Positions 4,555-48,228 of a stretch of DNA of 64,000 bases are shown here, piece by piece. The notes below the pieces were generated by a model that was given only the letters and a program-made list of their open reading frames with translations, was not told the DNA's origin and searched no databases. The translations under genes were made by a program, and so were the position numbers. Within the stretch, counting starts at the first letter, position 1, and each line of letters begins with the position of its first letter. Origin of the DNA: Flavisolibacter tropicus (GTDB taxonomy: Bacteria; Bacteroidota; Bacteroidia; Chitinophagales; Chitinophagaceae); NCBI RefSeq assembly GCF_001644645.1, contig NZ_CP011390.1:3654001-3718000 (forward strand), in the 5' to 3' direction.

Positions 4555-4630
4555 AGTTGAGTAGGCAATGAAAATCAGATTTTAATGAACCAACGGCAAC
4601 TTTGTAAAACAAATGCTGCCCTAATCAAGC

Positions 4631-4680
4631 GTCGTGTCCCTGCAAACACACAAGGCTAGGAAGGAGAAACGGCTGGGACG
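4631..4680. repeat. Degenerate copy of the GGTCC/GCCGTGTC palindrome family
   Basis: GTCGTGTCCCTGC at the left and GGAGAAACGGCTGGGACG at the right are imperfectly complementary. They match the better copies at 15889-15935 and 45121-45172. It sits 3' of the minus-strand pepF gene, the same relative position as the other copies. Confidence 0.45.
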
Positions 4681-4811: not shown

Positions 4812-6545
4812 TTAGGAGGGCTTATGCGACACCTTCTCAATCTCATTATGCACAAACAACATCAACTCACTGATATATTCAGGCGTGAAATTGAATTCCA
4901 GTCCAGCGGCTTTATACAACTCAGGTAAGCTGCGTGTGCCACCTAACTGCAATGCATTGATATAGTTGTTGATTGCTTGCTCTTTGTTTTCTTTGAACTG
5001 TTTCCACAATCCGATAGCACCTAATTGAGCAATACCATATTCAATGTAATAGAAAGGCACTTCAAAAAGGTGTAATTGGCGCTGCCAGCCATACTTGCGG
5101 TATCCTTCCAGACCGGTTACATCTATATTAATTGGAGTAAACTCGTTTTGAATCCTACGCCAGTTTTCCGCGCGCTCCTCCAAGGTATGGTTTGGATTTT
5201 CATACACCCAATGCTGAAACTTATCGATGGTAGCAATCCAGGGGAAGATGGTTATCACACGTTCTAATTGATGCTCTTTTGCGCGGCGCAATTCTTCAGC
5301 ATTATCAAAGAAAGTGTCCCAGTAGTCCATGCTCATTAGTTCCATGGCCATGGATGCCACTTCAGCAATTTCCATGGGGTATTGCTTAAAAGATGTCAGT
5401 GGCAGGTCGTGCGCCAGGAAGGAGTGTACGGCATGACCACCTTCGTGTACCATGGTGGTTACATCATGCATTTGACCAGCGGCATTCATGAAAATAAATG
5501 GCGCACCAGTTTCTTCCAGCGGACAATTATAACCTCCGGGCGCCTTGCCCTTGCGGCTGTCCAGGTCCAGGCGACCCATTTCTTTCATCTTCACTATACA
5601 ATCAGCAAAGAACGGGTTCATCTTGCGGAAGGTAGCTACTGTTTTATCTACCAGTTCATCGGCAGTCTGGAAGGGCGACAAAGGCTTAATACCTTCAGGC
5701 TCAGCTTCCATATCCCAAGGGCGTAACATATCCAATCCTAAACGCTGGCGTTTACGATCGTACAGAAAGTTCACAATATCCAGTACATGTGTGCGTACTG
5801 CTTCCTGAAACTGGAAACAGTCTTCCTTGGTATAATCAAAGCGACCCAGTTCTACAAATCGATAGTCGCGATAATTGGCAAAGCCAGCGTTCTTAGCAAT
5901 CTGATCACGCTTTTGTACCAGGGAGGTATAAAGATCGTTCAGCTGGTCCTTGTCCTGCAGGCGGCGCTCCTGGATTTTACGATATACCTGCTCGCGCAGC
6001 TCGCGGCTGGGGCTTTCTAAAAACTTGGCAGCTTGTTGCAGAGTATATTCCTTTCCCTCTACTTCAACGGTCATTTTACCGGAGATAACGCCAAACTGCT
6101 GGGCCATTACAGCTGTTTCTGCCTGTAAAGGAATGTTTTCCTCGCGGAAGAGCTCAATGCTTTTCCGCACATTGCGCAGGTAAATATGATAGGCTTCGCC
6201 TTTCAGCTCACCTACAAATGGATTTTCTACCAGCTTGCGGTTCAGCTTATCAGCATAGGGCTGCATCTTAGGCTGAACCTCCATCACAAAGTATTCAAAG
6301 GCCTGCTCCAGTTCTTTGTTTTCGGTATCGCAGGTCATGCGGATCTGGCGCCAGGCGGCGTCTTCTCCAACAACCGCTTCCAGCTCACTCATGTCCTTGA
6401 GCCATTTCTCCAGCTCTTCTTTAGAATTGAGTGGCCGGTCCAGTAACTCTTTAAAATAAGGCTCCAGGTTTTGCCAATCGCTTACTTTAAAATCTTCTGG
6501 TAAATAGGTCCGGGGTAATTTTTTAATATCTGCACTAAGGTTCAT
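4812..6545 (-). CDS. pepF: M3 family oligoendopeptidase F
   Basis: The 577-residue cytoplasmic protein has the thermolysin-like zinc motif HEGGHAVHSF (HExxH, about residue 368), preceded by the family's TTMVHE strand and followed by EIAEVASMAMELMSM, which supplies the third zinc ligand Glu. The long helical N-terminal half is typical of the clamshell M3 fold. These enzymes trim short peptides of roughly 7-17 residues in the cytosol. Length and motif spacing match the PepF/M3 clade common in Bacteroidota. The start is close to a recognisable N-terminus (LPRTYLPEDFKVSDW). A GCACTCC-type hairpin lies about 65 bases beyond the stop. Confidence 0.93.
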   Translation of the reverse strand: MNLSADIKKLPRTYLPEDFKVSDWQNLEPYFKELLDRPLNSKEELEKWLKDMSELEAVVGEDAAWRQIRMTCDTENKELEQAFEYFVMEVQPKMQPYADKLNRKLVENPFVGELKGEAYHIYLRNVRKSIELFREENIPLQAETAVMAQQFGVISGKMTVEVEGKEYTLQQAAKFLESPSRELREQVYRKIQERRLQDKDQLNDLYTSLVQKRDQIAKNAGFANYRDYRFVELGRFDYTKEDCFQFQEAVRTHVLDIVNFLYDRKRQRLGLDMLRPWDMEAEPEGIKPLSPFQTADELVDKTVATFRKMNPFFADCIVKMKEMGRLDLDSRKGKAPGGYNCPLEETGAPFIFMNAAGQMHDVTTMVHEGGHAVHSFLAHDLPLTSFKQYPMEIAEVASMAMELMSMDYWDTFFDNAEELRRAKEHQLERVITIFPWIATIDKFQHWVYENPNHTLEERAENWRRIQNEFTPINIDVTGLEGYRKYGWQRQLHLFEVPFYYIEYGIAQLGAIGLWKQFKENKEQAINNYINALQLGGTRSLPELYKAAGLEFNFTPEYISELMLFVHNEIEKVSHKPS

Positions 6546-7419: not shown

Positions 7420-7879
7420 AATACTTCTTTTTTGGGAGGTGCAAGATACAACCACGGATTTAAATGTTTAAAAAAGGATTGCCGGGATTTTAGAGGGCAC
7501 TTGGCGTTTCCATCTAAAACCTTTGTGCGAAATCGTGAAACGTCAGGCCCCTCCCAGCCTCCCCGAAGGGAGGAGGCCGGTTGCACAGCGGCCAGCTTAG
7601 CAAACAGTACTTTCATTTGCAATTAGAATAAAATGAAAAAGTACTCCCCTTTAAGGAGTGCTTTTTTTATGTAAAACTGTTTGTACTTGTGGGATTGTTC
7701 GGCAGCTAAGTCCTCCCTTCGGAAGGATTTAGGAGGGCCTCACGTTTCACGTTTGACGTTTCACGATGAGCCTTCTACAGCTTCTCCGCATCAACTATTA
7801 ACCTTAATTAACCATAAGTGGGGTACCTAACGGCATGGTTTTTAGCGCCTTTAATACAGTTCTGGTAAATTATATGACC
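7420..7879. other. Divergent intergenic region filled with repeat modules
   Basis: The 460 bases between two divergent genes hold a CCTCCC...GGGAGG hairpin near 7546-7582, a CGTGAAACGTC module near 7530, the GCACTCC hairpin at 7636-7668, a TTTAGGAGGGCCT module near 7711-7740 and a CGTTTCACGTTTGACGTTT block at 7743-7765. The same modules recur elsewhere in the window. No small gene was seen. Confidence 0.6.
7636..7668. repeat. GCACTCC-family terminator-like hairpin between divergent genes
   Basis: AAAAAGTACTCC pairs with GGAGTGCTTTTT around a 7-base loop, with A and T runs on the two sides. It lies between two genes transcribed away from each other, so it has no upstream transcript to terminate. 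That suggests it arrived as part of a dispersed element. Confidence 0.7.
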
Positions 7880-10774
7880 ATGTATAGAAAGTTATTGTTT
7901 TTTAGCCTGGCTTTATTTTCTTTCTTTTTTTCACAAGCACAATCGTTTTCTATATCCGGCCGTATCATTGATGCCGAATCCCGAACTGCCCTTCAGGGGT
8001 CCAGTGTACTATTAAGAAGCATCAAAGACACTACGTTATCGTATTCCACTTTTACCGACTCCACAGGCCGGTTTCAATTTGATAATATTCAGCGTGATTC
8101 GTTTCGGTTAACCATCAGCGCTGTCGGCTATGAAACCTTAAGCCGCAGTGTACGCGTAGATTCAGCCAATGTAGTATTAGCCAATATCACTGTGCCACGC
8201 ACTTCCAGAGAGCTTACAGGGGTAACGGTAACCACCCGCATACCACCAGCACAGCAAAAGGGCGACACCGTACAGTTCAATGCCAACCAGTTTAAAGTAA
8301 ACCCCGATGCTACCGCAGAGGAGTTAGCGCGCAAAGTACCGGGCATTACGGTTGAGAATGGCCAAGTAAAAGCACAAGGCGAAAACGTACGCCGTGTAAC
8401 AATAGATGGTCGGGAACTTTTTGGTGAGGATGCTACGGCAGCCTTACGCAACCTGCCGGCCGAGATCATTGATAAGATTCAGGTGTTTGACCGGCTGAGC
8501 GACCAGGCCCAGTTTAGCGGGTTTGACGATGGCAATACCAGCAAAGAGATCAACATTGTGACCAAGGCCAATATGCGCAATGGCCATTTTGGAAGAGTGT
8601 TTGCCGGCTACGGTACTGACGATCGCTACCAGGCCGGTGGTAATGCCACCCTGCTTAAAGGTAATCGCCGCATTTCCCTGGTAGGCAACTTTAATAATAT
8701 CAACCAGCAAAACTTTTCCCAGCAAGACCTGTTGGGCGTTACCAGTAATGCCCAGCGGGGTGGCGGAGGTGGTGGTCCCCGCGGTGGTGGCGGAGGACCA
8801 AGAGGTGGTAGCGGCAACCGTGGGCAGGGCTCGGGCAACCAGGGTGGTGGTAATTTTGGCGGCTTTGGTAGCAGCGGCAACTTCCTGGTAGGCCAGCAAA
8901 ATGGTATCAACCGCACGAAGGCTTTTGGTATTAACTACTCCGATCTATGGGGTAAGAAGGTCACTGTATCGGCCAGTTATTTTTTCAACAACACAGATAA
9001 TACCACCAGCGAGTTGACTAATCGCCAATACTATCTAACCACCATACCCAACATACGCGAGAATAACAATAACAACAGTCAGAACACTAACCACCGCTTC
9101 AACATGCGACTGGAGTATCGTATAGATTCATCCAACCAATTGATCATTACACCGAATCTTTCTTTTCAGAACAACGATGCCAAGAGCCTGCGGAATACTC
9201 TTCGTTTCTTTAATGAAGGCCAAACAGTAAGCAAAGTGGACAATAACCGCATTAGCGACCGCGCCGGCAATAACCTGAATAACACAATCCTTTACCGGCA
9301 CTCATTCCCCAAGAAAGGGCGCACATTTTCTGTGAATCTAAATACATCCTATAATAAAAGAGATGGTGACACTTACCAACAAACATTCACCACTAACTAT
9401 TCAGGGTCTACCTCCTTTGACACGTCTGACCAACAACACATTGACCAGCTAAACAATGGCTACCAGGTTTCTACCAATTTTGTTTATACCGAGCCACTGT
9501 GGAAGAACACACAGCTCCAATTAAATTACAACCCAACTTTTTCTAAAAGCAAGTCTGACCAGCAAGCCTTCCGGTTTGATGAACTCAGCGACAAATACTC
9601 GCTATTTGATACCAGCCTATCCAATCAGTTTGAGAATAAAACACGCGCACAAAATGGTGGTATCTCGTTCCGCACCGGTACACGCGACAACCAGTTCTCG
9701 GCAGGTGTCAACTATCAAAATACCAACTTGAACAGCGACCAGGTATTTCCAACAGTGCTCCAGGTCAATAAAACTTTTCAGAACATCTTACCTAATGCTA
9801 TGTTCCGCTACAAGTTTTCGCCCAAAAGCAATATAAGGCTGATGTACCGGAGCAGCGTGAACCTGCCATCAGTAACGCAGTTGGCCGCAGTAGCTGATAT
9901 TACGGACCGGCCATTTGTTACTGTTGGTAATCCTAATTTGGATCCACAGTATACCCATACGTTTAGTGGCCGCTATACATTCACCAACACGGCAAAAGGC
10001 AGTTTGATCCTGGCCAATGTGTTCTGGCTACAGTCCAACAATTACATTACCAATGCTACCTATGTAGCCACAAAAGACTCTGTTATCAGCAATAACATTG
10101 TACTAAACCCAAGCGACGAGCTTACTGTGCCCATAAACCTGGATGGTTACAACAGCTTACGTTCTTTCTTAACCTTTGCCATACCGGTGCGAGCCATTAA
10201 ATCGAACGTTAACATTAACGGCGGCTTTACCTACAACCGCTTCCCTGGCTTAATCAATAACGTAAGTAATTTGGCCAATAATTACGTTTATACCATAGGA
10301 ACAGTAATAGCAAGTAATATCAGCCAATACGTAGACTTTACAGTGTCCTATTCAGCCAATTTTAATAATGTAACCAACAGCATCGTTAAAGAACGAAACG
10401 ACAGCTACTTTCAGCATACTGCCGGCTTGCAGCTGAACCTATTATCTAAGAAAGGCTGGTTTTTCCAGAATGATCTGAACAACCAATACTATTCTGGACT
10501 TTCAGCAGGCTATAACCAAAGCTTCTGGCTGTGGAATATGGGTGCAGGTAAAAAGTTCCTGAAAGATCAAAAAGGAGAACTGCGTTTTAATGTGTTTGAC
10601 CTTTTAGGCCAGAACCGCAGCTTGGGACGTAATGTAACGGAAACCTATATTGAAGATGAACGCAATGAGGTGTTGCAGCGTTATTTCATGCTGACTTTTA
10701 CTTACAACCTGCGCAACTTTGGAACGGCCGCTGCGCGTGCCGCTAATCGGAGTGGGGCTGGTGGTACCAGATAA
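7880..10774 (+). CDS. TonB-dependent-receptor-like outer membrane beta-barrel protein
   Basis: From the ATG at 7880 the 964-residue protein has a signal peptide (MYRKLLFFSLALFSFFFSQAQ). A carboxypeptidase-regulatory-like beta-sandwich follows (ISGRIIDAESRTALQGSSVLL...), then a plug-like segment (NPDATAEELARKVPGITVENG, VRRVTIDGRELFGED) and a long barrel rich in Asn and aromatic residues. This is the outer_membrane_beta-barrel/OMP_b-brl_3 group related to SusC-type receptors, probably a transporter or adhesin in the outer membrane. Around residues 295-330 there is an unusual Gly/Arg/Pro-rich loop with repeated GGGGGPRGG. In-frame ATGs at 7835 and 7874 also exist; 7880 gives the cleanest signal peptide. 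No SusD partner is adjacent. Confidence 0.88.
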   Translation: MYRKLLFFSLALFSFFFSQAQSFSISGRIIDAESRTALQGSSVLLRSIKDTTLSYSTFTDSTGRFQFDNIQRDSFRLTISAVGYETLSRSVRVDSANVVLANITVPRTSRELTGVTVTTRIPPAQQKGDTVQFNANQFKVNPDATAEELARKVPGITVENGQVKAQGENVRRVTIDGRELFGEDATAALRNLPAEIIDKIQVFDRLSDQAQFSGFDDGNTSKEINIVTKANMRNGHFGRVFAGYGTDDRYQAGGNATLLKGNRRISLVGNFNNINQQNFSQQDLLGVTSNAQRGGGGGGPRGGGGGPRGGSGNRGQGSGNQGGGNFGGFGSSGNFLVGQQNGINRTKAFGINYSDLWGKKVTVSASYFFNNTDNTTSELTNRQYYLTTIPNIRENNNNNSQNTNHRFNMRLEYRIDSSNQLIITPNLSFQNNDAKSLRNTLRFFNEGQTVSKVDNNRISDRAGNNLNNTILYRHSFPKKGRTFSVNLNTSYNKRDGDTYQQTFTTNYSGSTSFDTSDQQHIDQLNNGYQVSTNFVYTEPLWKNTQLQLNYNPTFSKSKSDQQAFRFDELSDKYSLFDTSLSNQFENKTRAQNGGISFRTGTRDNQFSAGVNYQNTNLNSDQVFPTVLQVNKTFQNILPNAMFRYKFSPKSNIRLMYRSSVNLPSVTQLAAVADITDRPFVTVGNPNLDPQYTHTFSGRYTFTNTAKGSLILANVFWLQSNNYITNATYVATKDSVISNNIVLNPSDELTVPINLDGYNSLRSFLTFAIPVRAIKSNVNINGGFTYNRFPGLINNVSNLANNYVYTIGTVIASNISQYVDFTVSYSANFNNVTNSIVKERNDSYFQHTAGLQLNLLSKKGWFFQNDLNNQYYSGLSAGYNQSFWLWNMGAGKKFLKDQKGELRFNVFDLLGQNRSLGRNVTETYIEDERNEVLQRYFMLTFTYNLRNFGTAAARAANRSGAGGTR

Positions 10775-10940: not shown

Positions 10941-11903
10941 CTATTTGTTAATGGGCTCTGTATAATATTCTGCGTGTTTAAGGAAGTTTTCAACTGCAGT
11001 AGTATCCGAATAGTTTAATTCTATGATTTCCTTGGTTGCTCTTTTTTTGTCTGGCGCATTCTTATAGTACGCTTTACAAATGGCATAACCCATAAAATAG
11101 CCTAAATCAGCAACTGTCTTTGCATTAGAGCCATTGTAAAGCCAATTGCTGTAGGAAGAAGTAAACATGTCTAATTTAAACTGCTCCTTGAGTTCTGCTT
11201 CATGCTGATTCCCGTAAACCAGGTAATTATTCTGTAAGGGTTTGCCCATTACAAGTTCTGTAATAAAGTCGCAAGCTCCTTCTCTAATGGATTGACCTAG
11301 CAAATTTTGTGCTTTTCCTTTTTGCTGAGTATGCACATATTCATGAATGTTCAACGGAACAATATTGCCTGTCTCTTGGCTTTTAAACACCCCTCCGAGC
11401 CAGTTGTTAGAAAATTCCGAAACGTCAGTTGTAGGATTGCCAGTAGCAATTTCAGTCCCTATCAATACCATATCATTCCTAGTTGTCCCACCTGAACGAA
11501 GTCCTCCGATCGTAAAATACATTTTGGCTTCTTTCAGCTCTGGGTATAGTGTTCTTAGCTTCTGAATGCTATTTTCGATTTCTATAGCTTTTGACTTCGC
11601 GGTAAGCGTATTAGGTCGGATGGAACTCCAAAACTTAGGTAACTTACGAATCAGCCTAACCCATAATTCAGCTGTATAATCTCTGGCTTCCATAAAGGCC
11701 TTTAACCCCTCTGTGCCTTTATCAATATAGAGTGTTTGAAGGTAGTGAAGTTGCTGTAAACTGTCGGAGGTGGTTAGGCAACTGTCATAGGCCCTCCAAA
11801 AGTTATCAATATCGGAAGTATAAACTTTTTGATTTGTTTTCTGCCCTGCAACGGAAAGTAAAACAACAAGAAAAAGAACTGCTGTTGCAACTATTCGCTT
11901 CAT
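10941..11903 (-). CDS. DUF2268-type putative zinc protease, secreted
   Basis: The 320-residue protein starts with a signal peptide (MKRIVATAVLFLVVLLSVAGQ). A metallopeptidase motif HEYVHTQQ (HExxH) lies about residue 195, and about 25 residues later REGACDFITEL supplies a candidate third ligand Glu. That spacing and the DFITEL helix match the DUF2268 predicted Zn-dependent proteases of Bacteroidota. The substrate is unknown. It is the leftmost member of the minus-strand accessory run. Short inverted sequences TGTTGTAT (10927) and ATACAATA (11928) bracket it, as seen with other genes of the run. Confidence 0.8.
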   Translation of the reverse strand: MKRIVATAVLFLVVLLSVAGQKTNQKVYTSDIDNFWRAYDSCLTTSDSLQQLHYLQTLYIDKGTEGLKAFMEARDYTAELWVRLIRKLPKFWSSIRPNTLTAKSKAIEIENSIQKLRTLYPELKEAKMYFTIGGLRSGGTTRNDMVLIGTEIATGNPTTDVSEFSNNWLGGVFKSQETGNIVPLNIHEYVHTQQKGKAQNLLGQSIREGACDFITELVMGKPLQNNYLVYGNQHEAELKEQFKLDMFTSSYSNWLYNGSNAKTVADLGYFMGYAICKAYYKNAPDKKRATKEIIELNYSDTTAVENFLKHAEYYTEPINK

Positions 11904-12060
11904 TGTTTAAAACTGGTTTTGGTATGTATACAATAATTGAATATACGAACTACAACGAGTTGCTTAGCTGCCCTGAACTAATGCTGATGGCCGAGGCTGT
12001 TATACCATAGTTTAAATTGTCTGTGGTCTTTATTTACAGAACTGTTTGTCATTTCTTTCT

Positions 12061-12118
12061 ATGGTCCCTGCCGTGTCTCTTCCGCATAGCCATGTGCGTT
12101 GCAAAAGGCACGCTGTGG
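12061..12118. repeat. Imperfect palindrome of the GGTCC/GCCGTGTC family
   Basis: Left arm GGTCCCTGCCGTGTCTC and right arm GGCACGCTGTGGTC are partly complementary, with an inner CCGCA/TGCG match. It lies directly 3' of the DinB gene. It resembles the copies at 12779, 15889, 45121 and 47397. Confidence 0.55.
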
Positions 12119-12127
12119 TCAAAATAT

Positions 12128-12613
12128 TTAATTGTCATTCACTACTATCTTTTTAATCAATACAATTTGTCCTAAATGATAATAGCTATGTTCAATCATA
12201 GCTTCTATGTTTCGTTGATAGGTCCCATACTTTTCATCAACAAACACCTCGTTTAATTTTTCGTCTGGCATTTGTTCAATCAAGGAGGCAAATGCTTCTG
12301 CATCATTCCAGAATGTAGTCAAAAAGCTTTCCCATTCTTTTTGTGATTGTATTGGTGGAAATTCGAAACTGTATTTATCTTTTATGTCAAGGCTTCCGCC
12401 TTCAAAAACATTCTTAATCCCTTTTATGTAATAGTGAATATGTTGAGCCAGTAAGGCTATTGTATTTAGGGAACGAACTTTAGCAGTCGCTATTTCCCAG
12501 CTTAGGTCGGTCAATTGATGTTTGAAATTGGTGTTTGCAATCCAGGTTCCACTTAGAATAACCTCTCTAAACCGATTTGCAATTTGATAAGTAGTCTCCA
12601 TCTGATTTTTCAT
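12128..12613 (-). CDS. DinB-like superfamily protein
   Basis: The 161-residue protein shows the DinB/YfiT four-helix-bundle pattern. There is a His in the first half (LLAQHIHYYIKGI, about residue 60) and the C-terminal EHSYYHLGQIVLIKK with two His four residues apart, which together bind a divalent metal. Some family members are thiol transferases or damage-inducible proteins; most are uncharacterised. It belongs to the accessory minus-strand run. About 90 bases upstream is a block (12699-12740) shared with the region upstream of arr, with TATCTTTC on the coding strand, a possible variant -7 box. Confidence 0.82.
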   Translation of the reverse strand: MKNQMETTYQIANRFREVILSGTWIANTNFKHQLTDLSWEIATAKVRSLNTIALLAQHIHYYIKGIKNVFEGGSLDIKDKYSFEFPPIQSQKEWESFLTTFWNDAEAFASLIEQMPDEKLNEVFVDEKYGTYQRNIEAMIEHSYYHLGQIVLIKKIVVNDN

Positions 12614-12698
12614 GAAACGACCTGTTACTATTTTTTACAACAAAAGGGTATTTCTAGCAGTTGAGAAAGTCTGATCGACTACCGCTTAGCCTACTTTA

Positions 12699-12740
12699 TT
12701 TGTTGATTAGCATTTACTGTTGAAAGATAGTATATACCCT
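12699..12740. repeat. Dispersed block shared with 48149-48190
   Basis: TTTGTTGATTAG, then TTTA and GTTGAAAGATAGTA and a CCT end, are found in the same order at 48149-48190 with a few substitutions. In both places the block lies upstream of a minus-strand cassette-like gene. On the minus strand it contains TACTATCTTTCAAC, which could be a promoter. Confidence 0.7.
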
Positions 12741-12778
12741 ACATGGAAGCAATATGGTGCAAACAGCAGCATTGTTAT

Positions 12779-12836
12779 GGTTCTAGCCATGTCTTTTCAG
12801 CATTCCCTTCTGCGTTGCAAAGGTCACGGCTAGAAC
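12779..12836. repeat. Imperfect palindrome, 19-bp arms
   Basis: GGTTCTAGCCATGTCTTTT on the left and AAAGGTCACGGCTAGAACC on the right form a long stem with few mismatches. An inner GCA/TGC pair surrounds TTCCCTTC. GTTATGG overlaps the left end, giving an ATAAC edge on the minus strand. It lies 3' of the DoxX-like gene. Confidence 0.75.
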
Positions 12837-12896
12837 CAAACTAATTCCCAGCTTTATGAAGTCAGGAGTCAACTTTAGAATCCATGTTATCCACTA

Positions 12897-13277
12897 TTAA
12901 CTTACTGCAATTAGTTTTCTATCCGCAGGTCTAAAATACCATGACACAAGCGTTAGAACCAGCAGAAGCAATGGAGGGAATAATACTGTTGCTGGGCCGC
13001 CCAACGCAATATGTGAAAGCAGCGCACCCATCATGGCAAAGAAAAAGCCTGCATAAGCCCACTCTTTTAATACTGGTGTTTTAGGAATAAGCACGGCAGC
13101 TACACCCAGGAACTTCCCAACAGCCAGTATGGTAAGAAAGTAAATAGGATAACCCAAATGTGTAAAAAGGTCAACCTGTTCTTTTTGTTTTAATAATTGT
13201 ACGAGTCCAGTTGAAAACATTCCTAGCGAAAGCCAAAGGGTAGCAATCCAATAGATGATCTTATTTCTTTTTGTCAT
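12897..13277 (-). CDS. DoxX-like small integral membrane protein
   Basis: The 126-residue protein has four predicted membrane helices (about 8-25, 45-62, 72-90 and 100-117) and the DoxX_2 pattern: G-L-x-Q-L after helix 1, GYPIYFLTILAVGKFLGVAAV across helix 2, and KEWAYAGFFFAMMGALLSH in helix 3. It starts 6 bases after the SRPBCC gene and is the last gene of an ArsR-SRPBCC-DoxX operon, an arrangement often seen in Bacteroidota. The function of DoxX-like proteins of this type is not established; redox or membrane-thiol roles have been suggested for the wider family. Confidence 0.85.
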   Translation of the reverse strand: MTKRNKIIYWIATLWLSLGMFSTGLVQLLKQKEQVDLFTHLGYPIYFLTILAVGKFLGVAAVLIPKTPVLKEWAYAGFFFAMMGALLSHIALGGPATVLFPPLLLLVLTLVSWYFRPADRKLIAVS

Positions 13278-13283
13278 TGTGCG

Positions 13284-13748
13284 TTATTTTAATTGCTTAA
13301 GGATTTCTTGTATGCGGTTATGTGCCATGTTGATACCTTGAGCAAAAGGCATTTGCAGCAGTTGGTCTCTTTGGGTGATTGATTTATAAACGACGTGCAT
13401 AGTAAGTTTACTGGTATCATCAGTAAGCTTTTCAAACACCAAATACTCCATCCAGGCATCAAACGGCGTTTTTTCCATTTCAAATGTTCTTGTGATCTTT
13501 TGGTCAGGGATAAACTCATGAATGACTCCGTTGAAGCCGTGTTTATTTCCTTTAGGATCGGTTGTTTCAAATTGATAGCTGCCATGCTTTTTACTTTCCA
13601 ATTTCAGCACTTTTGTTCCCATCCACTGCTCAACAAACTCAGGCTCTACATAGGCTTTAAAAAGTAGATCCACTGGCAATTCAAATTCCCTTGTGATCAA
13701 TAGTTCCTGTTTACCGTTTTCGGCATTGACCTTTGTTCTTTGTTCCAT
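13284..13748 (-). CDS. SRPBCC (AHSA1-like) domain protein
   Basis: The 154-residue protein has the START/AHSA1 helix-grip pattern. It begins ELLITREFELPVDLLFKAYVEPEFVEQWMG, followed by paired strands with HGFNGVIHEFIPDQKITRTFE and a long C-terminal helix (INMAHNRIQEILKQL). These proteins bind hydrophobic ligands in a central cavity; the ligand here is unknown. It lies 6 bases after the ArsR gene and 6 bases before the DoxX-like gene, so all three are almost certainly one transcript. ArsR-linked AHSA1 proteins are very common and are thought to act with their regulator. Confidence 0.9.
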   Translation of the reverse strand: MEQRTKVNAENGKQELLITREFELPVDLLFKAYVEPEFVEQWMGTKVLKLESKKHGSYQFETTDPKGNKHGFNGVIHEFIPDQKITRTFEMEKTPFDAWMEYLVFEKLTDDTSKLTMHVVYKSITQRDQLLQMPFAQGINMAHNRIQEILKQLK

Positions 13749-13754
13749 AAGCTG

Positions 13755-14078
13755 TTATTTTCCTGATTTGTGTTTTTTCATGATAGCCTCCAGTTTATTA
13801 AATCTGTCATCCCACATGGTGCGGAATGGTTCAATAAAATCGGCTACTTCTTTCATCTTTTTAGCGTTAATATGATAGTGAATCTCCCTGCCGTTTTGCT
13901 CCTGTTCCAGCAGTTCGCACTCGGTGAGTATATGCAAGTGTTTTGAAATGGTTGGCCTTGCTGTATCAAAGTTGGCAGCTATGGCACCTGCTGTCATGGA
14001 CTGCGTGGCTACCAGAAGCAGTATAGCCCTCCTTGTGGGGTCTGCTATGGCTTGAAATACATCTCGTCTCAAATTCAT
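13755..14078 (-). CDS. ArsR-family winged-helix repressor
   Basis: The 107-residue protein begins with the signature of the ArsR subgroup paired with AHSA1 proteins ([20 protein letters not shown]). A winged helix-turn-helix follows, [23 protein letters not shown], then the wing segment [16 protein letters not shown]. No Cys metal site (CxC) is visible, so it is probably not a metal sensor. It is the first gene of a three-gene operon. Its start codon lies 2 bases from a large symmetric inverted repeat (14080-14125) that is a convincing autoregulatory operator. Confidence 0.92.
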
Positions 14079-14079
14079 T

Positions 14080-14125
14080 GCGTAGCTATTTGGCTACGAA
14101 TATACATGTAGCCACTTAGCTACGC
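14080..14125. promoter_or_regulatory. Probable ArsR operator: four-half-site inverted repeat
   Basis: GCGTAGCTA (14080-14088) mirrors TAGCTACGC (14117-14125). Inside these, GGCTAC mirrors GTAGCC around GAATATACAT. This gives four alternating copies of a TAGCYA-type half-site immediately upstream of the ArsR start. The position and symmetry fit autorepression. Confidence 0.8.
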
Positions 14126-14332
14126 AAATTATTCTACTAATTTTTAGCATCTATTTTCTTTTAGCTAGGTGTGAATGAGTATAGGCTGTTTTTATTATAT
14201 AGCCATAGAAGGATGCAACACGAAAGCTGATTCAAGGCAATATTGTGCGTCTAACGTACCAAGATGGGCAGGATGAAGCTTGCGCTTTGCATTACTAATA
14301 TCTTTTGGCTTTTCTACCCTTTGCTGTGGAAT

Positions 14333-14450
14333 AGCTGTCCTCATCATCGTGTCAGGCTGGTAACGGCCTCGGCACTGGTTCGGTTAACAATACCTTTACG
14401 CCTACCGGTGCCGAAGCAATCCCAACTTTGAACTAACGATGAGGACAGCT
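14333..14450. repeat. 118-base nested inverted repeat
   Basis: AGCTGTCCTCAT (14333-14344) is perfectly complementary to ATGAGGACAGCT (14439-14450). A second stem CCTCGGCACTGG (14367-14378) pairs with CCGGTGCCGAAG (14405-14416). The two stems are nested and separated by asymmetric bulges. It lies 3' of the SnoaL-like gene on the minus strand. It could be a structured RNA or a cassette-type recombination site. Confidence 0.65.
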
Positions 14451-14530
14451 AAGAGTAGGAAAGAGGGCAATAAAACAACAGCGAGGGACTGCAAAACTTG
14501 GTGATGAACCTGTGTGTTTTATAGTTTGCT

Positions 14531-14980
14531 TTAGCTGGAATGATCATGCAGAATCTTCCAGACATTACCTCTACGAACAAAAATTAAGGTATAGATCCCT
14601 CTTCTTTCCGGCAGGCCGTTTCCAGACAATACAAACTTGCCCGTTAGTAGTGCATGCTCATTACCAAGAGGGCGCACCACCATGTCTTCATATCGTAAGT
14701 TTTGCTTGGGCTTATCGCCGTTAAAAAATCCTTTCTGGTAATTTTCCCGCATACCTTTTATTCCAACCGGGCCTTTGGAAAGCATAAACGTAGAAGCCGT
14801 GTCATACACAGCCATGAAAGCATCAAGGTTACCGGCATTCCAGTCTTGGGCAGACTGGTTCATTACTGTTACTATTTCATTGACGTTTCCACCTTTACTT
14901 TGTTTTTTTACTGACGCACAACTCCAAAGCAATACTGGGAACATAATAAACAACAGATTCTTCTTCATATACAACTTCAA
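14531..14980 (-). CDS. SnoaL/DUF4440-like lipoprotein
   Basis: The 149-residue protein has a lipoprotein signal (LLFIMFPVLLWSC, Cys about residue 21) and an NTF2-like fold: NQSAQDWNAGNLDAFMAVYDTASTFM at the start of the cone, and GIYTLIFVRRGNVWKILHDHSS as the closing strands. DUF4440/SnoaL-like domains bind small ligands or act as isomerases; no catalytic set is evident. Starting at the internal Met (14968) would give a tighter signal peptide. It is a single gene in the accessory run, followed by the nested inverted repeat at 14333-14450. Confidence 0.82.
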   Translation of the reverse strand: MKLYMKKNLLFIMFPVLLWSCASVKKQSKGGNVNEIVTVMNQSAQDWNAGNLDAFMAVYDTASTFMLSKGPVGIKGMRENYQKGFFNGDKPKQNLRYEDMVVRPLGNEHALLTGKFVLSGNGLPERRGIYTLIFVRRGNVWKILHDHSS

Positions 14981-15137
14981 ATAAAAGTTTTCTAATAGAA
15001 TTCAAATGTACTAGTAGTTTTTACTTGAATGTATTGCATCAGTCTTATAGTAAGGCATAAGTCAGCCAGGCTGCTAGTGTCCACAACAAAAAGACCTGCG
15101 CCAGGTGGGAGGGTACCATGTTAGCAACCTTTATTTA

Positions 15138-15713
15138 TCAAAATTGTTTGGGCTTCATTTTACGTGATGCAAGTTCAGCTATTTCATCAATGCGCTTTAG
15201 TCTTGTATCTGGTCGTTTGGCCAGCACCAGCCATTGTAACATTGCCTTTCTCACCGATTTGCTTAGGCTTAGAAAATAATCTTTTGAACCATGTTTTGAT
15301 TGAAACGCATTTTCTAAATCTTCCGGAATGACCAATTCTTCTACCTGATCCAACATTGTCCACGAGCCATTTTGTTTAGCCATTTCAATAGCATCAATAC
15401 CAGCTTTCGACATTAATCCTTTATCAATAAGTTTAATTACTTTTTCCTTGTTGATTTTGGACCAGGTGCTTTTTGGTTTTCGTTTGCTGAAAAACTGGTG
15501 TGAAGTTTCTTCGTCTATCTTTATTTTTTTGCTGTCAATCCAACCAAAGCAGAGCGCTACATCTACAGCGTCAGTCCAACTTATCGTTTTTCTGCCCGAC
15601 TTTTTACTATAGAAAACAAGCCATACAGCTGTCTTTGAAAGATGATTTTTCTCCAGCCATTTTCGCCACGTGTTAATGCTTTCGGGATAAAATACAGTTA
15701 TACTATTCTGCAT
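15138..15713 (-). CDS. YdeI/OmpD-associated family protein
   Basis: The 191-residue protein matches the YdeI family: WLEKNHLSKTAVWLVFYSKKSG near the start, then ISWTDAVDVALCFGWIDSKKIKIDEETS, and FFSKRKPKSTWSKINKEKV. The C-terminal half ends in a Lys-rich YFLSLSKSVRKAMLQWL helix and RLKRIDEIAELASRKMKPK. Family members are linked to antimicrobial-peptide resistance in enterobacteria, but the biochemical role is unknown. A second protein with this C-terminal module fused to DUF1801 is at 31022. It is an isolated gene in the accessory run. Confidence 0.88.
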   Translation of the reverse strand: MQNSITVFYPESINTWRKWLEKNHLSKTAVWLVFYSKKSGRKTISWTDAVDVALCFGWIDSKKIKIDEETSHQFFSKRKPKSTWSKINKEKVIKLIDKGLMSKAGIDAIEMAKQNGSWTMLDQVEELVIPEDLENAFQSKHGSKDYFLSLSKSVRKAMLQWLVLAKRPDTRLKRIDEIAELASRKMKPKQF

Positions 15714-15792
15714 AAGATAGCATTAAGCCTTACAATTTACGACACTGTAAATAGCTTTCACCAACGGCCTGATAAGGAGTGCCTATGATTCT

Positions 15793-15826
15793 GTTGTTGG
15801 TGACACAACGGCTACCGCACACTGAG
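15793..15826. repeat. Short palindromic repeat shared with 48079-48121
   Basis: GTTGTTGGTGACACAACGGC and the following CCGCACACTGAGAA match, in order, a block upstream of arr at 48079-48121, where the arms CCGTTGTTG and CAACAACGG are perfect complements. Both copies lie between cassette-like genes. Confidence 0.6.
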
Positions 15827-15888
15827 AACAGGTACTGGCTGCGAAAGCCACAAGAAAGCAGGCAACCCAACCTTCACGAATACCGTCG

Positions 15889-15935
15889 TGTCCCTTTCCA
15901 CGCGCACGGCTAAGCAAAGGAGACACGGCGGGGAC
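15889..15935. repeat. GGTCC/GCCGTGTC palindrome
   Basis: CGTGTCCCTTT on the left pairs with AAAGGAGACACG on the right, continuing into GCGGGGACC. It begins five bases from the GTTATGC sequence that brackets the next gene. This is one of the clearest copies of the family. Confidence 0.65.
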
Positions 15936-15962
15936 CGAAATGTTATGCATAGCTTTCATGTG

Positions 15963-16463
15963 CTAGAAAGCCCTTCCCACCTTCTTTTTAATTGTTTCAT
16001 CAAAAGCTGTTCGAGCTGCTTGGCTATAAATTGAATCACTGGAGGCTTTACTGGTTATAATACTTTCAGCATAATCTAGCGGATTGGCATCTGAGGAGTT
16101 TCCATAAACGCCTGTCACACCATAGTAAACAACTGCGGGCATAATCGGAGTGTCTTTCGCATTCAAGTTTTGTACTGGAACTTTGGTCCGCTTACCAGTA
16201 TTGTCTACAAAGTAATACTCCTGGTCTAAAACACCAGTTTCCAGCTTCGAACTTGTAATTAAAACACCATCAGCAGGAATATGGTAAATTCTTCGCCCAA
16301 TCTCAATAGGTATCGGAGCCGCATTGGGCTGGTTGAAAATAACGTTGATGCGTCCTTCAAATCCGGCAGGAACGAGAAAAGTTTCTTTTACTTTCTGCCC
16401 GCATGAGCTAAGAAAACAAAATAGGAATGATATTGCAGTTAGAAGTCTCATAAGATTACGCAT
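15963..16463 (-). CDS. Lipoprotein of DUF6843 type
   Basis: The 166-residue product has a lipoprotein signal (LLTAISFLFCFLSSC, Cys about residue 21). It then reads GRINVIFNQPNAAPIPIE..., GVLITSSKL, and DQEYYFVDNTGKRTKVPVQ, the pattern I associate with Bacteroidota DUF6843 proteins. A role is not known. The gene is bracketed closely by GTTATGCAT (15942-15950) and ACGCATAAC (16458-16466), an inverted pair of which the right member overlaps the start codon. It is followed 3' by a GGTCC palindrome. Confidence 0.65.
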   Translation of the reverse strand: MRNLMRLLTAISFLFCFLSSCGQKVKETFLVPAGFEGRINVIFNQPNAAPIPIEIGRRIYHIPADGVLITSSKLETGVLDQEYYFVDNTGKRTKVPVQNLNAKDTPIMPAVVYYGVTGVYGNSSDANPLDYAESIITSKASSDSIYSQAARTAFDETIKKKVGRAF

Positions 16464-16564
16464 AACGTCAGAATGCTTCCCGCAGTGGCATTGGCTGTTC
16501 TGGCGTTGATTTATGTTCTAAAATAGCCAATTTGTTCTTCTGTTTCATTGCAGCACGTTAGCCG
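16463..16564. repeat. attC-like folded site
   Basis: Read on the minus strand, this 100-base gap starts GGCTAACGT and ends ACGTTATGC. The outer TAACGT/ACGTTA pair and an inner ATTGGCT/AGCCAAT pair are complementary. On the plus strand CACGTTAGCC resembles the simple-site end of integron recombination sites. The layout (R''-like edge, imperfect inner stem, R'-like edge, between two short ORFs in the same direction) is that of an attC, but the edges deviate from the RYYYAAC/GTTRRRY consensus. Confidence 0.45.
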
Positions 16565-16594
16565 CTGTTGTGGAAAGCAAATGTTGTATGCCGT

Positions 16595-17236
16595 TTAAAT
16601 CTCCAGTCTTGCTCTTGCCATTCTAATATTCTCTTCTAAAATCTTATTTACCTCTGAATATTGTTCTTGACTGATAAGGTTTTTAATGGTTTTGAACTTT
16701 GGCACTTTGCTCGGCTGATGATTTTCCCACCACTGGATGGCTTCCTTGTATAATCCTGCTTTTAAAAAGAAATAGCCTTTGTCTACGAAGGTGCTGGGTA
16801 TATACCAAATAAAAGCATATTTATCAGCGGTTACCAGTTCAGATATGTTATGGCTCTCCTTAGAGAACTCAAAGAAGGGCAAAACACTGTTGTAAAGTAT
16901 ATACTTGATTTCAGCTACGCCTTCTTGCACTTTATTAGCATCATCACAGTACCACCACTTGTCTTTTTCAGTCTTGGCAAACTGTCCAATCCGATTGCCT
17001 GGCTGTAATGTGTCAAACGAGCACCCCGGCGCAAATAGTCCCTTTTGGACAATGTTAATTGTCATTTGATTGCTCAGTGAACTAGCACCTTTTTGAAAAG
17101 AAAGGAATTGAAGTAAGTCGTTGTCGGTCGTTCTGTAAAGAATAAATGTTTTATACGACTTAAAGCCAAAGCTGCCGAGAAATGCTTTGACCTCATTTTG
17201 AATGTATTTGTATCCTGTCAGTAAACTTGCTTCCAT
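16595..17236 (-). CDS. DUF4304-like protein
   Basis: The 213-residue cytoplasmic protein reads AFLGSFGFKSYKTFILYRTTDNDLLQFLSFQKG near the start and then MTINIVQKGLF, the pattern of DUF4304 proteins. The C-terminal third (YFFLKAGLYKEAIQWWENHQPS...) looks like helical repeats. No catalytic motif is visible. It is bracketed by GTTGTATGCC (16583-16592) and GGCATACAATAC (17253-17264), a gene-specific inverted pair. It is the right-hand end of the accessory run. Confidence 0.6.
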   Translation of the reverse strand: MEASLLTGYKYIQNEVKAFLGSFGFKSYKTFILYRTTDNDLLQFLSFQKGASSLSNQMTINIVQKGLFAPGCSFDTLQPGNRIGQFAKTEKDKWWYCDDANKVQEGVAEIKYILYNSVLPFFEFSKESHNISELVTADKYAFIWYIPSTFVDKGYFFLKAGLYKEAIQWWENHQPSKVPKFKTIKNLISQEQYSEVNKILEENIRMARARLEI

Positions 17237-17454
17237 AGAGGTTTTCTAAAATGGCATACAATACTTAAATCTACACATGTTTTTGCAGGCTCATAAGGAT
17301 TGTAGCTGAGCTACTTCGGCTTCAAAATGAAGCGCTTTCACTTGTGTTTCCTTGCTATCGTTAACATGAAAAGCGCATGTTTCTAATAAAGCTGTTAACC
17401 CTAAAAACGCAAGTGTAAAGTTCTTCAGCCTACGTTCACAAACTTGTCCTCTTT

Positions 17455-18105
17455 TTATTCTTTTATCTCCTCCAATACTTTTTCAATCCTTGCCTTCATC
17501 GTCTCATAATCCGTATAGCCGCGGCTAAGCAAAAAGAATTTGCTATCGGATACCTGCATGAGCACGGAAGGAAAACCATTGACTTGTAATTGTTTTACCA
17601 GTGCCATATCGTAATAGGCTTTCTCTCTGTACTCTTCACTATTTAGTTTGGTATAGAACTCGTCTTCCGGGATGTTGTACTTGGGCAACAGGTGGCGATA
17701 GGCTTCATTGTCGGTCAGGTCGCGGCCTTCATAATTGAGGGCATATTGCAGGTCCGATGCAAAGGCCACGGCTTTATCAGGATCGTAGTCTTTCAGAATG
17801 CCAAGAGCTATAGCTGGTTTAGTAGAATCGGGGAACCAGTCGGTTTTATCAGGATTGTTTACATGCCAGAGAAAATCTTCGCCAAACTTTACACCGGTTA
17901 ATTCTTCTACTTGTCTGTACTCCTCCTGAATGTATTTGGCCAGGGGCGCAAAATGCTGGGGCTCTTCCGGTAAGATCATTCCACCAGAGAGCACATCAAA
18001 TACCACTTGGCCCTTATATTCTTCAGATAGTTTTTTAATCACAGGGCTGAAGCCATAGCACCAACCGCAATACGCATCATAGCAATAATAGAGAGTAGGG
18101 GTCAT
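17455..18105 (-). CDS. DsbA/FrnE-like thioredoxin-fold oxidoreductase
   Basis: The 216-residue protein begins LYYCYDAYCGWCYGFSP, with the thioredoxin-fold active site CGWC about residue 15. It carries a helical insert and the cis-Pro loop in VNGFPSVLMQV, the arrangement of cytoplasmic DsbA-family (FrnE-like) proteins. There is no signal peptide. It should catalyse thiol-disulfide exchange or glutathione-linked redox chemistry. Its start codon overlaps the stop of the sterol-desaturase-family gene by one base (TAATG), so the two are translationally coupled. Confidence 0.88.
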   Translation of the reverse strand: MTPTLYYCYDAYCGWCYGFSPVIKKLSEEYKGQVVFDVLSGGMILPEEPQHFAPLAKYIQEEYRQVEELTGVKFGEDFLWHVNNPDKTDWFPDSTKPAIALGILKDYDPDKAVAFASDLQYALNYEGRDLTDNEAYRHLLPKYNIPEDEFYTKLNSEEYREKAYYDMALVKQLQVNGFPSVLMQVSDSKFFLLSRGYTDYETMKARIEKVLEEIKE

Positions 18106-45120: not shown

Positions 45121-45172
45121 CCTGCCTCCGCCGTGTCCCATGCCACGCACCAAGCTATGCTATGGAGACACG
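45121..45172. repeat. GGTCC/GCCGTGTC palindrome
   Basis: CCGCCGTGTCCCATGCCACGC and GGAGACACGGCGGGAAC form an imperfect stem around AAGCTATGC. Next to the copy at 15889 it is the clearest member of the family. It lies 3' of the SDR/DUF2867 gene. Confidence 0.65.
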
Positions 45173-45209
45173 GCGGGAACGGAAAAAGGCGGAAAAAGCC
45201 TACTGATTG

Positions 45210-46774: not shown

Positions 46775-46822
46775 AACCTTTTTCACAAGTAAAGGAACCA
46801 CGGCGAGGACCGAGATACAAAT
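46775..46822. repeat. Partial GGTCC-family palindrome with gene-bracketing edge
   Basis: CCTTTTTCACAAGTAAAGGAACCACGGCGAGGACC-type sequence resembles the right half of the palindrome family. It ends in GATACAAAT (46814-46822), the reverse complement of ATTTGTATC at 47382-47390, on the other side of the GNAT gene. Confidence 0.45.
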
Positions 46823-46882
46823 GTTGAGTTTACAACTGTCCGCCCCACTATTGCCAAACCGATGTTTCCAGCTGTGTTGTTG

Positions 46883-47365
46883 TTACGTTAGTTTGTAAAT
46901 AAATTCCTCTATTTCTGCCTGTCGTGCATTGGCAAAACCTTTGTCTTGACCGATTCTTACAAAGCCACATTTCTCTAACACTCTTTGTGAACCAAAATTG
47001 TCAAATGCTACTCGTCCGAAAATGGGTCTGGCCTTTTCAAGAGTTAGAAAGTGTTTAAGCGCTTTTGTTGCCACACCTTTACTCCAAAACTTTTTGTCAA
47101 TCCAATAGGTAATTTCCGCCTTGCCTTCCATTTCAAACTTCGAGACACTTCCAGCAATACTATTGTCAACTATTATTGTCTGCATATTTATAGTCGGGTC
47201 ATTCACCAACTTTGTATACTTGATTAAATAGGCTGCTTTGTCTGTCGGGTCTTTTGCCGTGAAAGCGGCTAAATAGTTAGCTTCTTTGTCAAGCTGAAAA
47301 ATAAAGAAGGTATCTAAATCAGCAACTTCAGTCTTTCGCAATATGATTTCACTATCGGTTATCAT
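46883..47365 (-). CDS. GNAT-family N-acetyltransferase
   Basis: From the ATG at 47365 the 160-residue protein has the GNAT fold. It starts IILRKTEVADLDTFFIFQLD, then carries the substrate strands (TIIVDNSIAGSVSKFE), the acetyl-CoA motif FWSKGVATKALKHFLTLEKARPIFGRV and the motif B segment DNFGSQRVLEKCGFVRIGQDKGF. It resembles RimJ-like or aminoglycoside-type acetyltransferases, but the substrate is not clear. It lies between two palindromes and has the inverted pair GATACAAAT/ATTTGTATC around it. A longer frame to 47455 runs through the palindrome and is unlikely. Confidence 0.87.
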   Translation of the reverse strand: MITDSEIILRKTEVADLDTFFIFQLDKEANYLAAFTAKDPTDKAAYLIKYTKLVNDPTINMQTIIVDNSIAGSVSKFEMEGKAEITYWIDKKFWSKGVATKALKHFLTLEKARPIFGRVAFDNFGSQRVLEKCGFVRIGQDKGFANARQAEIEEFIYKLT

Positions 47366-47386: not shown

Positions 47387-47489
47387 TATCAATTCGGCCC
47401 CTGCCGTTTCTCCGACCACCGCCATGCCCCTTGCCACGCGCACAAGGCCACACAAAGGAGACAGGGCGAGGACTAAAAACTAATTGATA
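47387..47489. repeat. Large palindrome between GNAT and arr
   Basis: The outer TATCAATT (47387-47394) and AATTGATA (47482-47489) are complementary. Inside, GGCCCCTGCCGTTTCTCC pairs imperfectly with GGAGACAGGGCGAGGAC, and there are inner GCCATG and GGCCACAC segments. The palindrome overlaps the stop codon of arr and spans about 100 bases, the size of an integron attC site. Confidence 0.65.
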
Positions 47490-47905: not shown

Positions 47906-48228
47906 CCTTACGTGCAGTGTTTTTAGTGTCGGAGTACTCACGCTTTCTGGAGCTTTTGAACTGAAGAATACCCCGAATAGGTAAGGTAAACTTAATGAAA
48001 TTCTTCGGTCCACGCCTGCAGCACATAAGCCAGGCGGTAAAACTCGACGGAGAAGAAAATGGCTGTTGCCTAAGCTTCCGTTGTTGGTCAAAAGACACAA
48101 CAACGGCCGCCGCACACCGAAGACCAACAAAGGCAGTAACCTTGTTCGTTTGTTGATTAGTGATTTACAGTTGAAAGATAGTACATAGCCTGTGTTGCAG
48201 CAATACTTATGTTATAGGCTGTTCTGCC
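47906..48228. other. Arr upstream region: palindrome and dispersed repeat
   Basis: This 323-base gap contains the palindromic repeat shared with 15793-15826 (CCGTTGTTG/CAACAACGG, 48078-48106), the dispersed block at 48149-48190 and the bracketing sequence TACTTATGTTATAGGC at 48204-48219. No gene is evident; a frame from 48130 to arr is probably spurious. Confidence 0.6.
48149..48190. repeat. Dispersed block shared with 12699-12740
   Basis: The TTTGTTGATTAG...GTTGAAAGATAGTA block recurs here. On the minus strand TACTATCTTTCAAC could serve as a promoter for arr, about 250 bases upstream of its start. Confidence 0.65.

Follow-up and report, generated by a model that had tools for sequence, protein, structure and literature searches.

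The window analysed here, a 64,000-nucleotide stretch (C1:3654001-3718000) of the single 5.94-Mb contig of Flavisolibacter tropicus, contains small accessory genes that are very likely cassettes and cassette remnants of an integron-like system of Bacteroidota, with a tyrosine recombinase that lacks the insertion typical of integron integrases as its presumed catalyst. By a cassette we mean a gene that would start at a GTT core (R') and close with an attC-like hairpin in which the R'' box reads as R' reverse-complemented, the two boxes forming a gene-specific bracket. The reading is built on recombinase-headed arrays, on their brackets and covarying hairpins, on the absent insertion, on flanking genes that are adjacent in relatives, and on CGTT-bordered duplicates in two relatives. 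A first-pass annotation of the window had proposed a cassette system, possibly with altered core sites, from brackets around five short genes. That proposal is now supported by a recombinase-headed array elsewhere in the genome and by attC-like matches across the genome, three of which lie in the window.

Cassette arrays behind an insertion-less recombinase

The array and its recombinase are found at 3095.9-3104.2 kb, ~550 kb from the window. The recombinase gene (C1:3103028-3104197, minus strand) encodes 389 amino acids and is the best match to the integron-integrase model among the recombinases of the genome. Each gene of the array lies on the recombinase strand and opens with GTT, and its opening bases return in reverse-complemented form at its end, with exact brackets GTTGTGTGC/GCACACAAC, GTTGTACGC/GCGTACAAC, GTTAGCGGCA/TGCCGCTAAC and GTTGTACGTA/TACGTACAAC. 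A gene labelled transposase-like from reading the sequence occupies the middle of the array, and less exact pairs follow further behind. The core of canonical integrons is GTTRRRY. The core in this array does not follow that consensus and is instead GTTRNNNGY-like over 9-10 bp, as in GTTGTGTGC and GTTAGCGGCA, which agrees with the altered core sites suggested earlier; the array is a well-preserved instance of the layout that the first-pass annotation had suspected.

The same arrangement recurs in relatives, where the system looks intact. We compared 25 loci, comprising 20 family regions around related recombinases, the locus of this genome, and four named loci with recombinase relatives (three Chitinophagaceae-like and one from Marivirga), the latter being all that a scan of contigs with a single recombinase protein yielded. 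Brackets that enclose an open reading frame (ORF), start with GTT[AG], and match over at least 8 exact bases number 55 downstream of the recombinase, a few of them overlapping, and 0 upstream, with downstream brackets present in 15 of the 25 loci. In eight of the ten loci that lack brackets (L148, L149, L152, L153, L160, L165, L114 and L116) the contig ends less than 900 bp downstream; because contigs end just behind the recombinase, as repetitive arrays would cause, arrays are probably undercounted in draft genomes. At 9 bases, the GTT core gives 54 brackets in 157.9 kb of downstream sequence compared with 2 in 193.9 kb upstream. Thirteen of 15 control cores yield 0-3 brackets upstream and 0-3 downstream; the remaining two, TTG (29) and TGT (9), score higher downstream, presumably through overlap with GTT. 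A further 15 loci were drawn from other families and classes, and 9 of them have downstream brackets, 32 in all. Therefore, both the cassette-specific complementarity of R' and R'' and the one-directional array adjoining an integrase, two features that define integrons, are observed here, with the genes running in the direction of the recombinase. Of ten cassette genes from one array that were compared with Pfam, eight gave no match at E ≤ 0.001.

The sites between neighbouring cassettes are mostly uniform, with 176-186 nt between R boxes in 21 of 24 cases. An nhmmer profile was built from 21 of the 24 recombinase-adjacent sites, and alignment A2 from 19, of which two are from the Flavisolibacter genome (set aside were three sites of L151, one of them 105 nt long, and one each of L117 and L159). 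These recombinase-adjacent sites gave the covariance model R1. A second covariance model, R2, was made from alignment A4, which holds 19 shorter sites of the Flavisolibacter genome that all lie outside the window, with still shorter or truncated sites excluded. The 19 sites of A2 share a hairpin in which R'' pairs with R', followed by an unpaired stretch and then by long, mismatched L arms, and 12 of its 20 pairs show changes on both sides. The L arms recur in A4, where 11 of 14 pairs have changed on both sides and 92.9% of cells are paired compared with 63.2% after shuffling and 32-47% when the alignment is slid. The covariation score of A4 is 0.719 compared with 0.182 for shuffled alignments (reached in 0 of 500 shuffles); kinship among sequences can lift a score above the shuffled control without any structure, yet the slid control still falls to 0.03-0.10. 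The hairpin with R''/L'' and L'/R' arms that characterizes integron attC sites is therefore present.

At E ≤ 0.001, R1 finds 61 matches, 16 of them training sites, all in 11 family loci and none in 12 control loci (the check took in 11 of the 20 family loci that had been fetched and 12 of the 15 controls; that for R2 covered all 15). Downstream on the recombinase strand lie 59 of the 61. With array anatomy so like that of integrons, it could be supposed that a canonical chromosomal integron, with an IntI that carries the additional domain, made the arrays and that the insertion-less recombinase is merely a neighbour. Canonical IntI over the model cut-off does occur in 105 of 395 phylum genomes, being common in other classes, and some genomes, such as G432, have both types. 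However, the Flavisolibacter genome has no IntI over the cut-off, and the arrays start behind the insertion-less recombinase, with only 2 of 56 and 1 of 33 brackets (the latter from other families and classes) and 1 of 61 R1 matches in front of it. Five canonical IntI loci have classic-side brackets in two cases (one and two brackets); two downstream brackets occur in G457, and G598 has a single same-strand bracket upstream. None of these five loci, where the sites differ or are absent, has an R2 match at E ≤ 0.05, and the best R2 match among them and 15 relatives' loci has an E-value of 0.11. A canonical integron is thus a very improbable source of the arrays.

The recombinase itself differs from IntI at a defined place. 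An alignment of 43 proteins shows no variation at R245, H334, R337, H360 and Y369, to which catalytic roles can be assigned by analogy. The first catalytic arginine is separated from the HxxR box by 89-95 residues in 55 proteins of the insertion-less type, compared with 131 in 29 canonical IntI proteins drawn from the 30 best-scoring loci; the spacing is 93 and 96 in the XerC/XerD-like proteins of the genome. All 55 proteins, behind part of which arrays were checked, lack the ~40-residue insertion that defines integron integrases. The Flavisolibacter recombinase scores 177 bits against the IntI model, where the cut-off is 265, and places 22 residues opposite residues 182-246 (65 residues) of IntI4 in structure 2A3V. 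Therefore, it does not contain the IntI-specific additional domain. A C-terminal SPLD-like motif is common to IntI and most of the insertion-less recombinases. In a quick tree of 48 sequences, with 31 recombinases of at least 340 residues, 15 of the 29 IntI proteins and the Xer proteins of the genome (midpoint root, archaeal XerA excluded), the insertion-less clade has a Shimodaira-Hasegawa-like approximate likelihood ratio (SH-aLRT) support of 94, the IntI clade of 100, and the grouping of both against Xer of 99. An AlphaFold2 model of the recombinase has a mean predicted local distance difference test (pLDDT) score of 88.8 and a predicted template modelling (pTM) score of 0.65, with XerA and IntI4 as top structural matches. 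The N-terminal extension of ~110 residues belongs to no clear family; DUF5710 matches it in 3 of 43 members.

The start of the arrays suggests where cassettes would enter. In 16 loci, picked from the 24 with brackets because their first bracket is close to the recombinase, this bracket starts 51-809 bp downstream of the gene. Ten of the 16 belong to the family, and in 8 of these 10 a TATATTTAT/ATAAATTTA-like element, reading like TATATTTATGT or ATAAATTTATGA, precedes the first GTT. The -7 promoter element of Bacteroidota is TAnnTTTG, which this element resembles, so that a single site may serve both as attI and as promoter. Duplicated units point to movement at the core. In L151 (genome G099) a 475-nt unit occurs twice with 100% identity and different neighbours, the identity starting at CGTT and stopping immediately behind the CGTT that follows; Marivirga arenosa (L117) has a 492-nt duplicate of the same kind, whose identity extends 4 bases into the next R' box. 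Near-identical cassette copies are also found in L277 (98.6%) and L279 (99.4%), where the edges near GTT are less clear. CGTT-bounded duplicates are the trace expected of recombination at the core, and to judge from sequence they appear in relatives rather than in the window. In the mechanism that we propose, the recombinase, which is related to IntI and XerA, would capture a folded strand of the hairpin and recombine this single strand at the GTT core beside attI, which would lie shortly downstream of the recombinase gene. New cassettes would enter behind the -7-like element and be expressed in the recombinase's own direction; by analogy with integrons, they would lack promoters of their own.

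Attachment-like sites and brackets in the window

R2 matches the window three times, in each case on the strand that carries the genes, and the next match has an E-value of 3.8. Site 1 (16457-16592, minus strand; R2 E 3.9e-11, R1 E 0.0034) forms the junction of the DUF4304 and DUF6843 cassettes, with R'' GGCATACAAC at 16583-16592 and R' GTTATGCGTA at 16457-16466. Site 2 (12636-12768, minus strand; R2 E 6.1e-7) lies between a DoxX operon and a DinB-like gene. Site 3 (48087-48220, minus strand; R2 E 7.9e-7) follows a gene for 167 amino acids; its 5' half (R''/L'') is convincing and its 3' half enters another repeat. R1 gives no match at E ≤ 5 for sites 2 and 3. The nhmmer profile adds a half site (46815-46872, minus strand; E 9.1e-6), the R''/L'' side of which follows a gene for a GNAT acetyltransferase and is interrupted by a repetitive extragenic palindromic (REP)-like palindrome. 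Across the genome, R2 has at least 52 matches at E ≤ 0.005 (19 training sites and 33 others, three sites being in the window) and at least 56 at E ≤ 1, counted over 150 of 2467 first-look candidates; they occur singly and in small clusters.

Sites that fold and sit at the 3' ends of genes could also be intergenic hairpins that act in RNA, as terminators or regulators, with no recombination involved, and covariation fits RNA and single-stranded DNA alike. Such hairpins would leave unexplained why the first bases of a gene match the site at its end, why arrays stand behind a recombinase, and why identical duplicates are bordered by CGTT. We consider this the least likely of the explanations weighed here. 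A search of the window at Rfam gathering thresholds found nothing, nor did a tRNA search of the window.

For the brackets, the first-pass annotation had quoted ten strings around five genes, and all ten are present where it placed them; the pairs themselves fared unevenly. A strict test, which demands a GTT start, at least 8 exact bases and an enclosed ORF, leaves one bracket in the 64-kb window, the 9-bp GTTATAGGC around the 167-residue gene (cassette 48211-48762, minus strand; R' 48754-48762, R'' 48211-48219). Two pairs are near matches. The DUF6843 cassette (15942-16466, minus strand) has R' GTTATGCGT at 16458-16466 and R'' ATGCATAAC at 15942-15950, with 8 of 9 bases matching, and the DUF4304 cassette (16583-17262, minus strand) has R'' GGCATACAAC at 16583-16592 and R' ATTGTATGCC at 17253-17262, with 9 of 10 matching and the mismatch a G to A at the crossover base. 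Both of these brackets flank the independently found site at 16457-16592. The other two pairs do not hold: GATACAAAT/ATTTGTATC (46814/47382) contains no GTT or AAC and abuts REP-like palindromes, yet the half site at 46815-46872 lies beside it, and for TGTTGTAT/ATACAATA (10927/11928) both 8-mers occur five times each in the window. At 7 bases, the window holds brackets for 4 plus-strand and 5 minus-strand ORFs; judged from these strand counts, with no shuffled control, short brackets alone are near chance, and we set aside the raw strings alone as too weak to serve as evidence.

The genomic setting indicates how the genes may have arrived. The accessory block at 10.9-17.4 kb, with all of its genes on the minus strand, is flanked by a TonB-receptor-like gene (7835-10774) and a DsbA-like gene (17455-18105), both labelled from reading the sequence. 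Had relatives kept the block genes in place, as the first-pass annotation recognized, the cassette interpretation would have been refuted; it withstood a comparison of the spacing of the flanking genes in 15 relatives' loci around the DsbA-like gene. In eight of these, all of the same genus, the flanking genes are 26 bp to 1.2 kb apart (26 bp in G004, ~190 bp in G003, and 0.6-1.2 kb in G015, G006, G009, G001, G002 and G014), with 0-2 other ORFs of at least 70 amino acids on the cassette side of the gap. In the other seven (G013, G005, G007, G019, G016, G018 and G020) the receptor gene is disrupted, has other genes in between, or is absent from the vicinity. Therefore, the block is an insertion in the Flavisolibacter lineage or an expanded variable spot. 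A DNA comparison with the whole block found matches in 270 of 394 family genomes; because the matches listed fall mostly in the DoxX operon and end at gene edges, this comparison is uninformative on cassette borders.

None of the five PF00589 matches of the genome falls in the window. Sites 1 and 2, 3.7 kb apart, give the two or more attC sites with no integrase nearby that mark a cluster of attC sites lacking integrase (CALIN), as found with our own models rather than those of IntegronFinder. The window sites were found by a model trained outside the window, and the block is best read as a decayed array without a recombinase, most of its other intergenic spaces showing no site. It would be a CALIN-type offshoot, deposited between two core genes and later fragmented by mutations, by REP-like palindromes, and perhaps by an insertion sequence (IS) element.

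Several points weigh against the cassette interpretation. An exact bracket is present in only one of the five window cases, the R boxes of site 2 (12636-12768) are degenerate, and the R2 alignment of the 3' half of site 3 is probably wrong. No site was found between most of the window genes, with only one among the genes at 10941-15713, and because most intergenic spaces show no site, several block genes may have come by other means. The E-values of R1 and R2 are rough, as calibration was short, and the training sites of R1 had been selected by brackets downstream of the recombinase. One partial R1 match lies upstream (L156), and another lies downstream on the opposite strand, overlying a further match (L151). 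The other two loci without brackets, L154 and L167, have no exact bracket in 11 kb downstream, though they have three and two R1 matches, respectively; outside the family, 6 of 15 loci have no downstream bracket and G608 has one upstream. The element before the first cassette is unclear in 2 of the 10 family loci and clear in none of the 6 other loci.

Palindromes and other genes of the window

REP-like palindromes with the core GGTCCYYGCCGTGTCTC, often as inverted pairs, were identified by repeat comparison at 4630-4679, 12060-12112, 12776-12828, 15887-15936, 45128-45185, 46787-46816 and 47395-47482 (no strand assigned), and the copy at 15887-15936 directly adjoins R'' of the DUF6843 cassette. 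The motif occurs 29 times in the genome compared with 2 times for a reversed control. Three Y1 transposase genes (G000:C1:557066, 5393550 and 3087660; L079, L080 and L081) are present, two of them near-identical, and those at 557 kb and 3088 kb, the two tested, exceed the cut-off of the REP-associated model NF047646. Multicopy palindromes thus coexist with a gene for a REP-associated tyrosine transposase (RAYT), for these class 1 palindromes only and with a putative pairing of gene and repeat. These findings, and the near-chance look of short brackets in the window, are what would be expected if the block were an ordinary genomic island, its repeats REP elements or bacterial interspersed mosaic elements (BIMEs) spread by RAYT transposases, and its brackets accidental. 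However, the attC-like sites differ from the palindromes in sequence and structure and were found by models that contain no REP elements, arrays of such sites follow a recombinase, and the CGTT-bounded duplications in two related arrays weaken this explanation further. When the 29 REP matches are merged to 21 loci and compared with the 52 R2 sites, including the three in the window, 13 of the 21 have an attC-like site no more than 10 kb away, compared with 1.9 expected from circular shifts; this proximity leaves the gene-specific brackets unexplained. An ordinary island with REP repeats is therefore unlikely.

Class 1 palindromes were also considered as attC sites themselves, but they form inverted pairs without gene-specific parts, and REP-like elements fit them better. 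The Y1 transposase was dropped as the mover of the block since REP elements are not gene-specific. The Y1 gene at 5393 kb adjoins a cassette flanked by attC-like sites (L080:4378-4514 and 5221-5358). A second repeat family, with a core like GTTGTTGGTC...ACAACGGCYRCCGCACAC, lies beside cassettes at 15781-15870 and 48061-48170, and has copies near other REP loci.

The genes of the block, all on the minus strand and assigned from ORFs and Pfam except where stated, are a GldB-like/DUF2268 gene (10941-11903), a DUF1572/DinB-like gene (12128-12613), the DoxX_2, AHSA1 and ArsR-like genes of the DoxX operon (12897-14078, with the ArsR-like label at 13755-14078 taken from reading the sequence rather than from Pfam), a DUF4440/SnoaL_3 gene (14531-14980), an OmdA gene (15138-15713), the DUF6843 gene (15963-16463; PF20862) and the DUF4304 gene (16595-17236; PF14137). 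A strong hairpin of ~120 nt at 14330-14450, with arms AGCTGTCCTCATC.../...GATGAGGACAGCT, has no close copy among the loci of this genome that were compared. The second group of cassettes, also on the minus strand, comprises the cassette-like GNAT acetyltransferase gene (46883-47362; PF13302), with the attC half site at its 3' end, and the 167-residue gene (48229-48732), for which a Pfam search found no family. An IS110-like transposase gene (49224-50267), so labelled from reading the sequence, adjoins this group.

Distribution and relation to known systems

The recombinase has a match at E ≤ 1e-60 in 148 of 394 family genomes and in 92 of 395 phylum genomes. Many weaker matches in the phylum begin near residue 110 and lack the extension. 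Among the canonical IntI matches listed, none is in the family of F. tropicus, and all but G451, of the same order, are outside its class.

Like chromosomal integrons and CALINs, the system has single-gene cassettes mostly in one orientation, R''/L''/L'/R' hairpins in which unpaired bases separate R from L, R' and R'' boxes that complement each other in a gene-specific way, an array beside a tyrosine recombinase, and recombinase-free sites elsewhere in the genome; the SPLD-like motif is a further point in common with chromosomal integrons. Unlike in those integrons, the recombinase lacks the ~40-residue insertion and has ~110 extra residues at its N terminus, the core is GTTRNNNGY-like over 9-10 bp, and the recombinase gene and its array point the same way. 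That direction is shared with the 'reverse' integrons of Spirochaetota, of which Treponema is an example. Typical IntI proteins of Spirochaetota are generally in reverse orientation, and these integrons count as IntI by their additional domain (PMC9668308); the recombinases described here lack that domain. XerA/XerH-type recombinases (PDB 5hxy and 4a8e) rank among the top matches to the catalytic part in both structure and sequence, but the present clade groups with IntI against the XerC/XerD proteins of the genome, and its recombinase heads cassette arrays. REP/RAYT systems resemble the present one in having palindromic intergenic repeats in the same regions; unlike the attC-like sites, those repeats are not gene-specific, have another sequence and no tie to the recombinase, and form a separate layer over the array.

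The ability of IntI to recombine folded single strands is ascribed to the additional domain, by which search tools also recognize integrons (PMC9024848; PMC9668308). For complete genomes of Bacteroidetes proper, the former paper names one complete integron, in Salinibacter ruber M1 (PMC9024848), and intI is listed for the Bacteroidetes/Chlorobi group in another (PMC2426708). A further study notes that the insertion is not fully conserved in a subgroup of integron-like recombinases, yet calls it essential for integron function (PMC8138268); because incomplete conservation was noted there, insertion-less relatives of IntI are, as proteins, not wholly new. We found no published description of the present system with its arrays in the literature searched, outside which lie preprints and most subscription journals, and it is described neither in the accessible parts of the papers cited above nor in those of related papers (PMC8618304; PMC8565304; PMC3414803; PMC12690207; PMC8352920).

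These comparisons suggest that Bacteroidota probably harbour a second, widespread lineage of integrons, whose recombinase, a sister of IntI, would move folded attC cassettes without the additional domain, whether as the ancestral state that preceded the gain of this domain or as an independent solution in which the N-terminal extension takes over its role. If this is true, the lineage would escape tools that require the IntI domain. Recombinases without it at the head of integron-like arrays make the role of the additional domain and the origin of integrons directly testable. The arrays point to a platform for gene capture in these bacteria that surveys have overlooked, and many of the cassette genes that it carries are of unassigned function.

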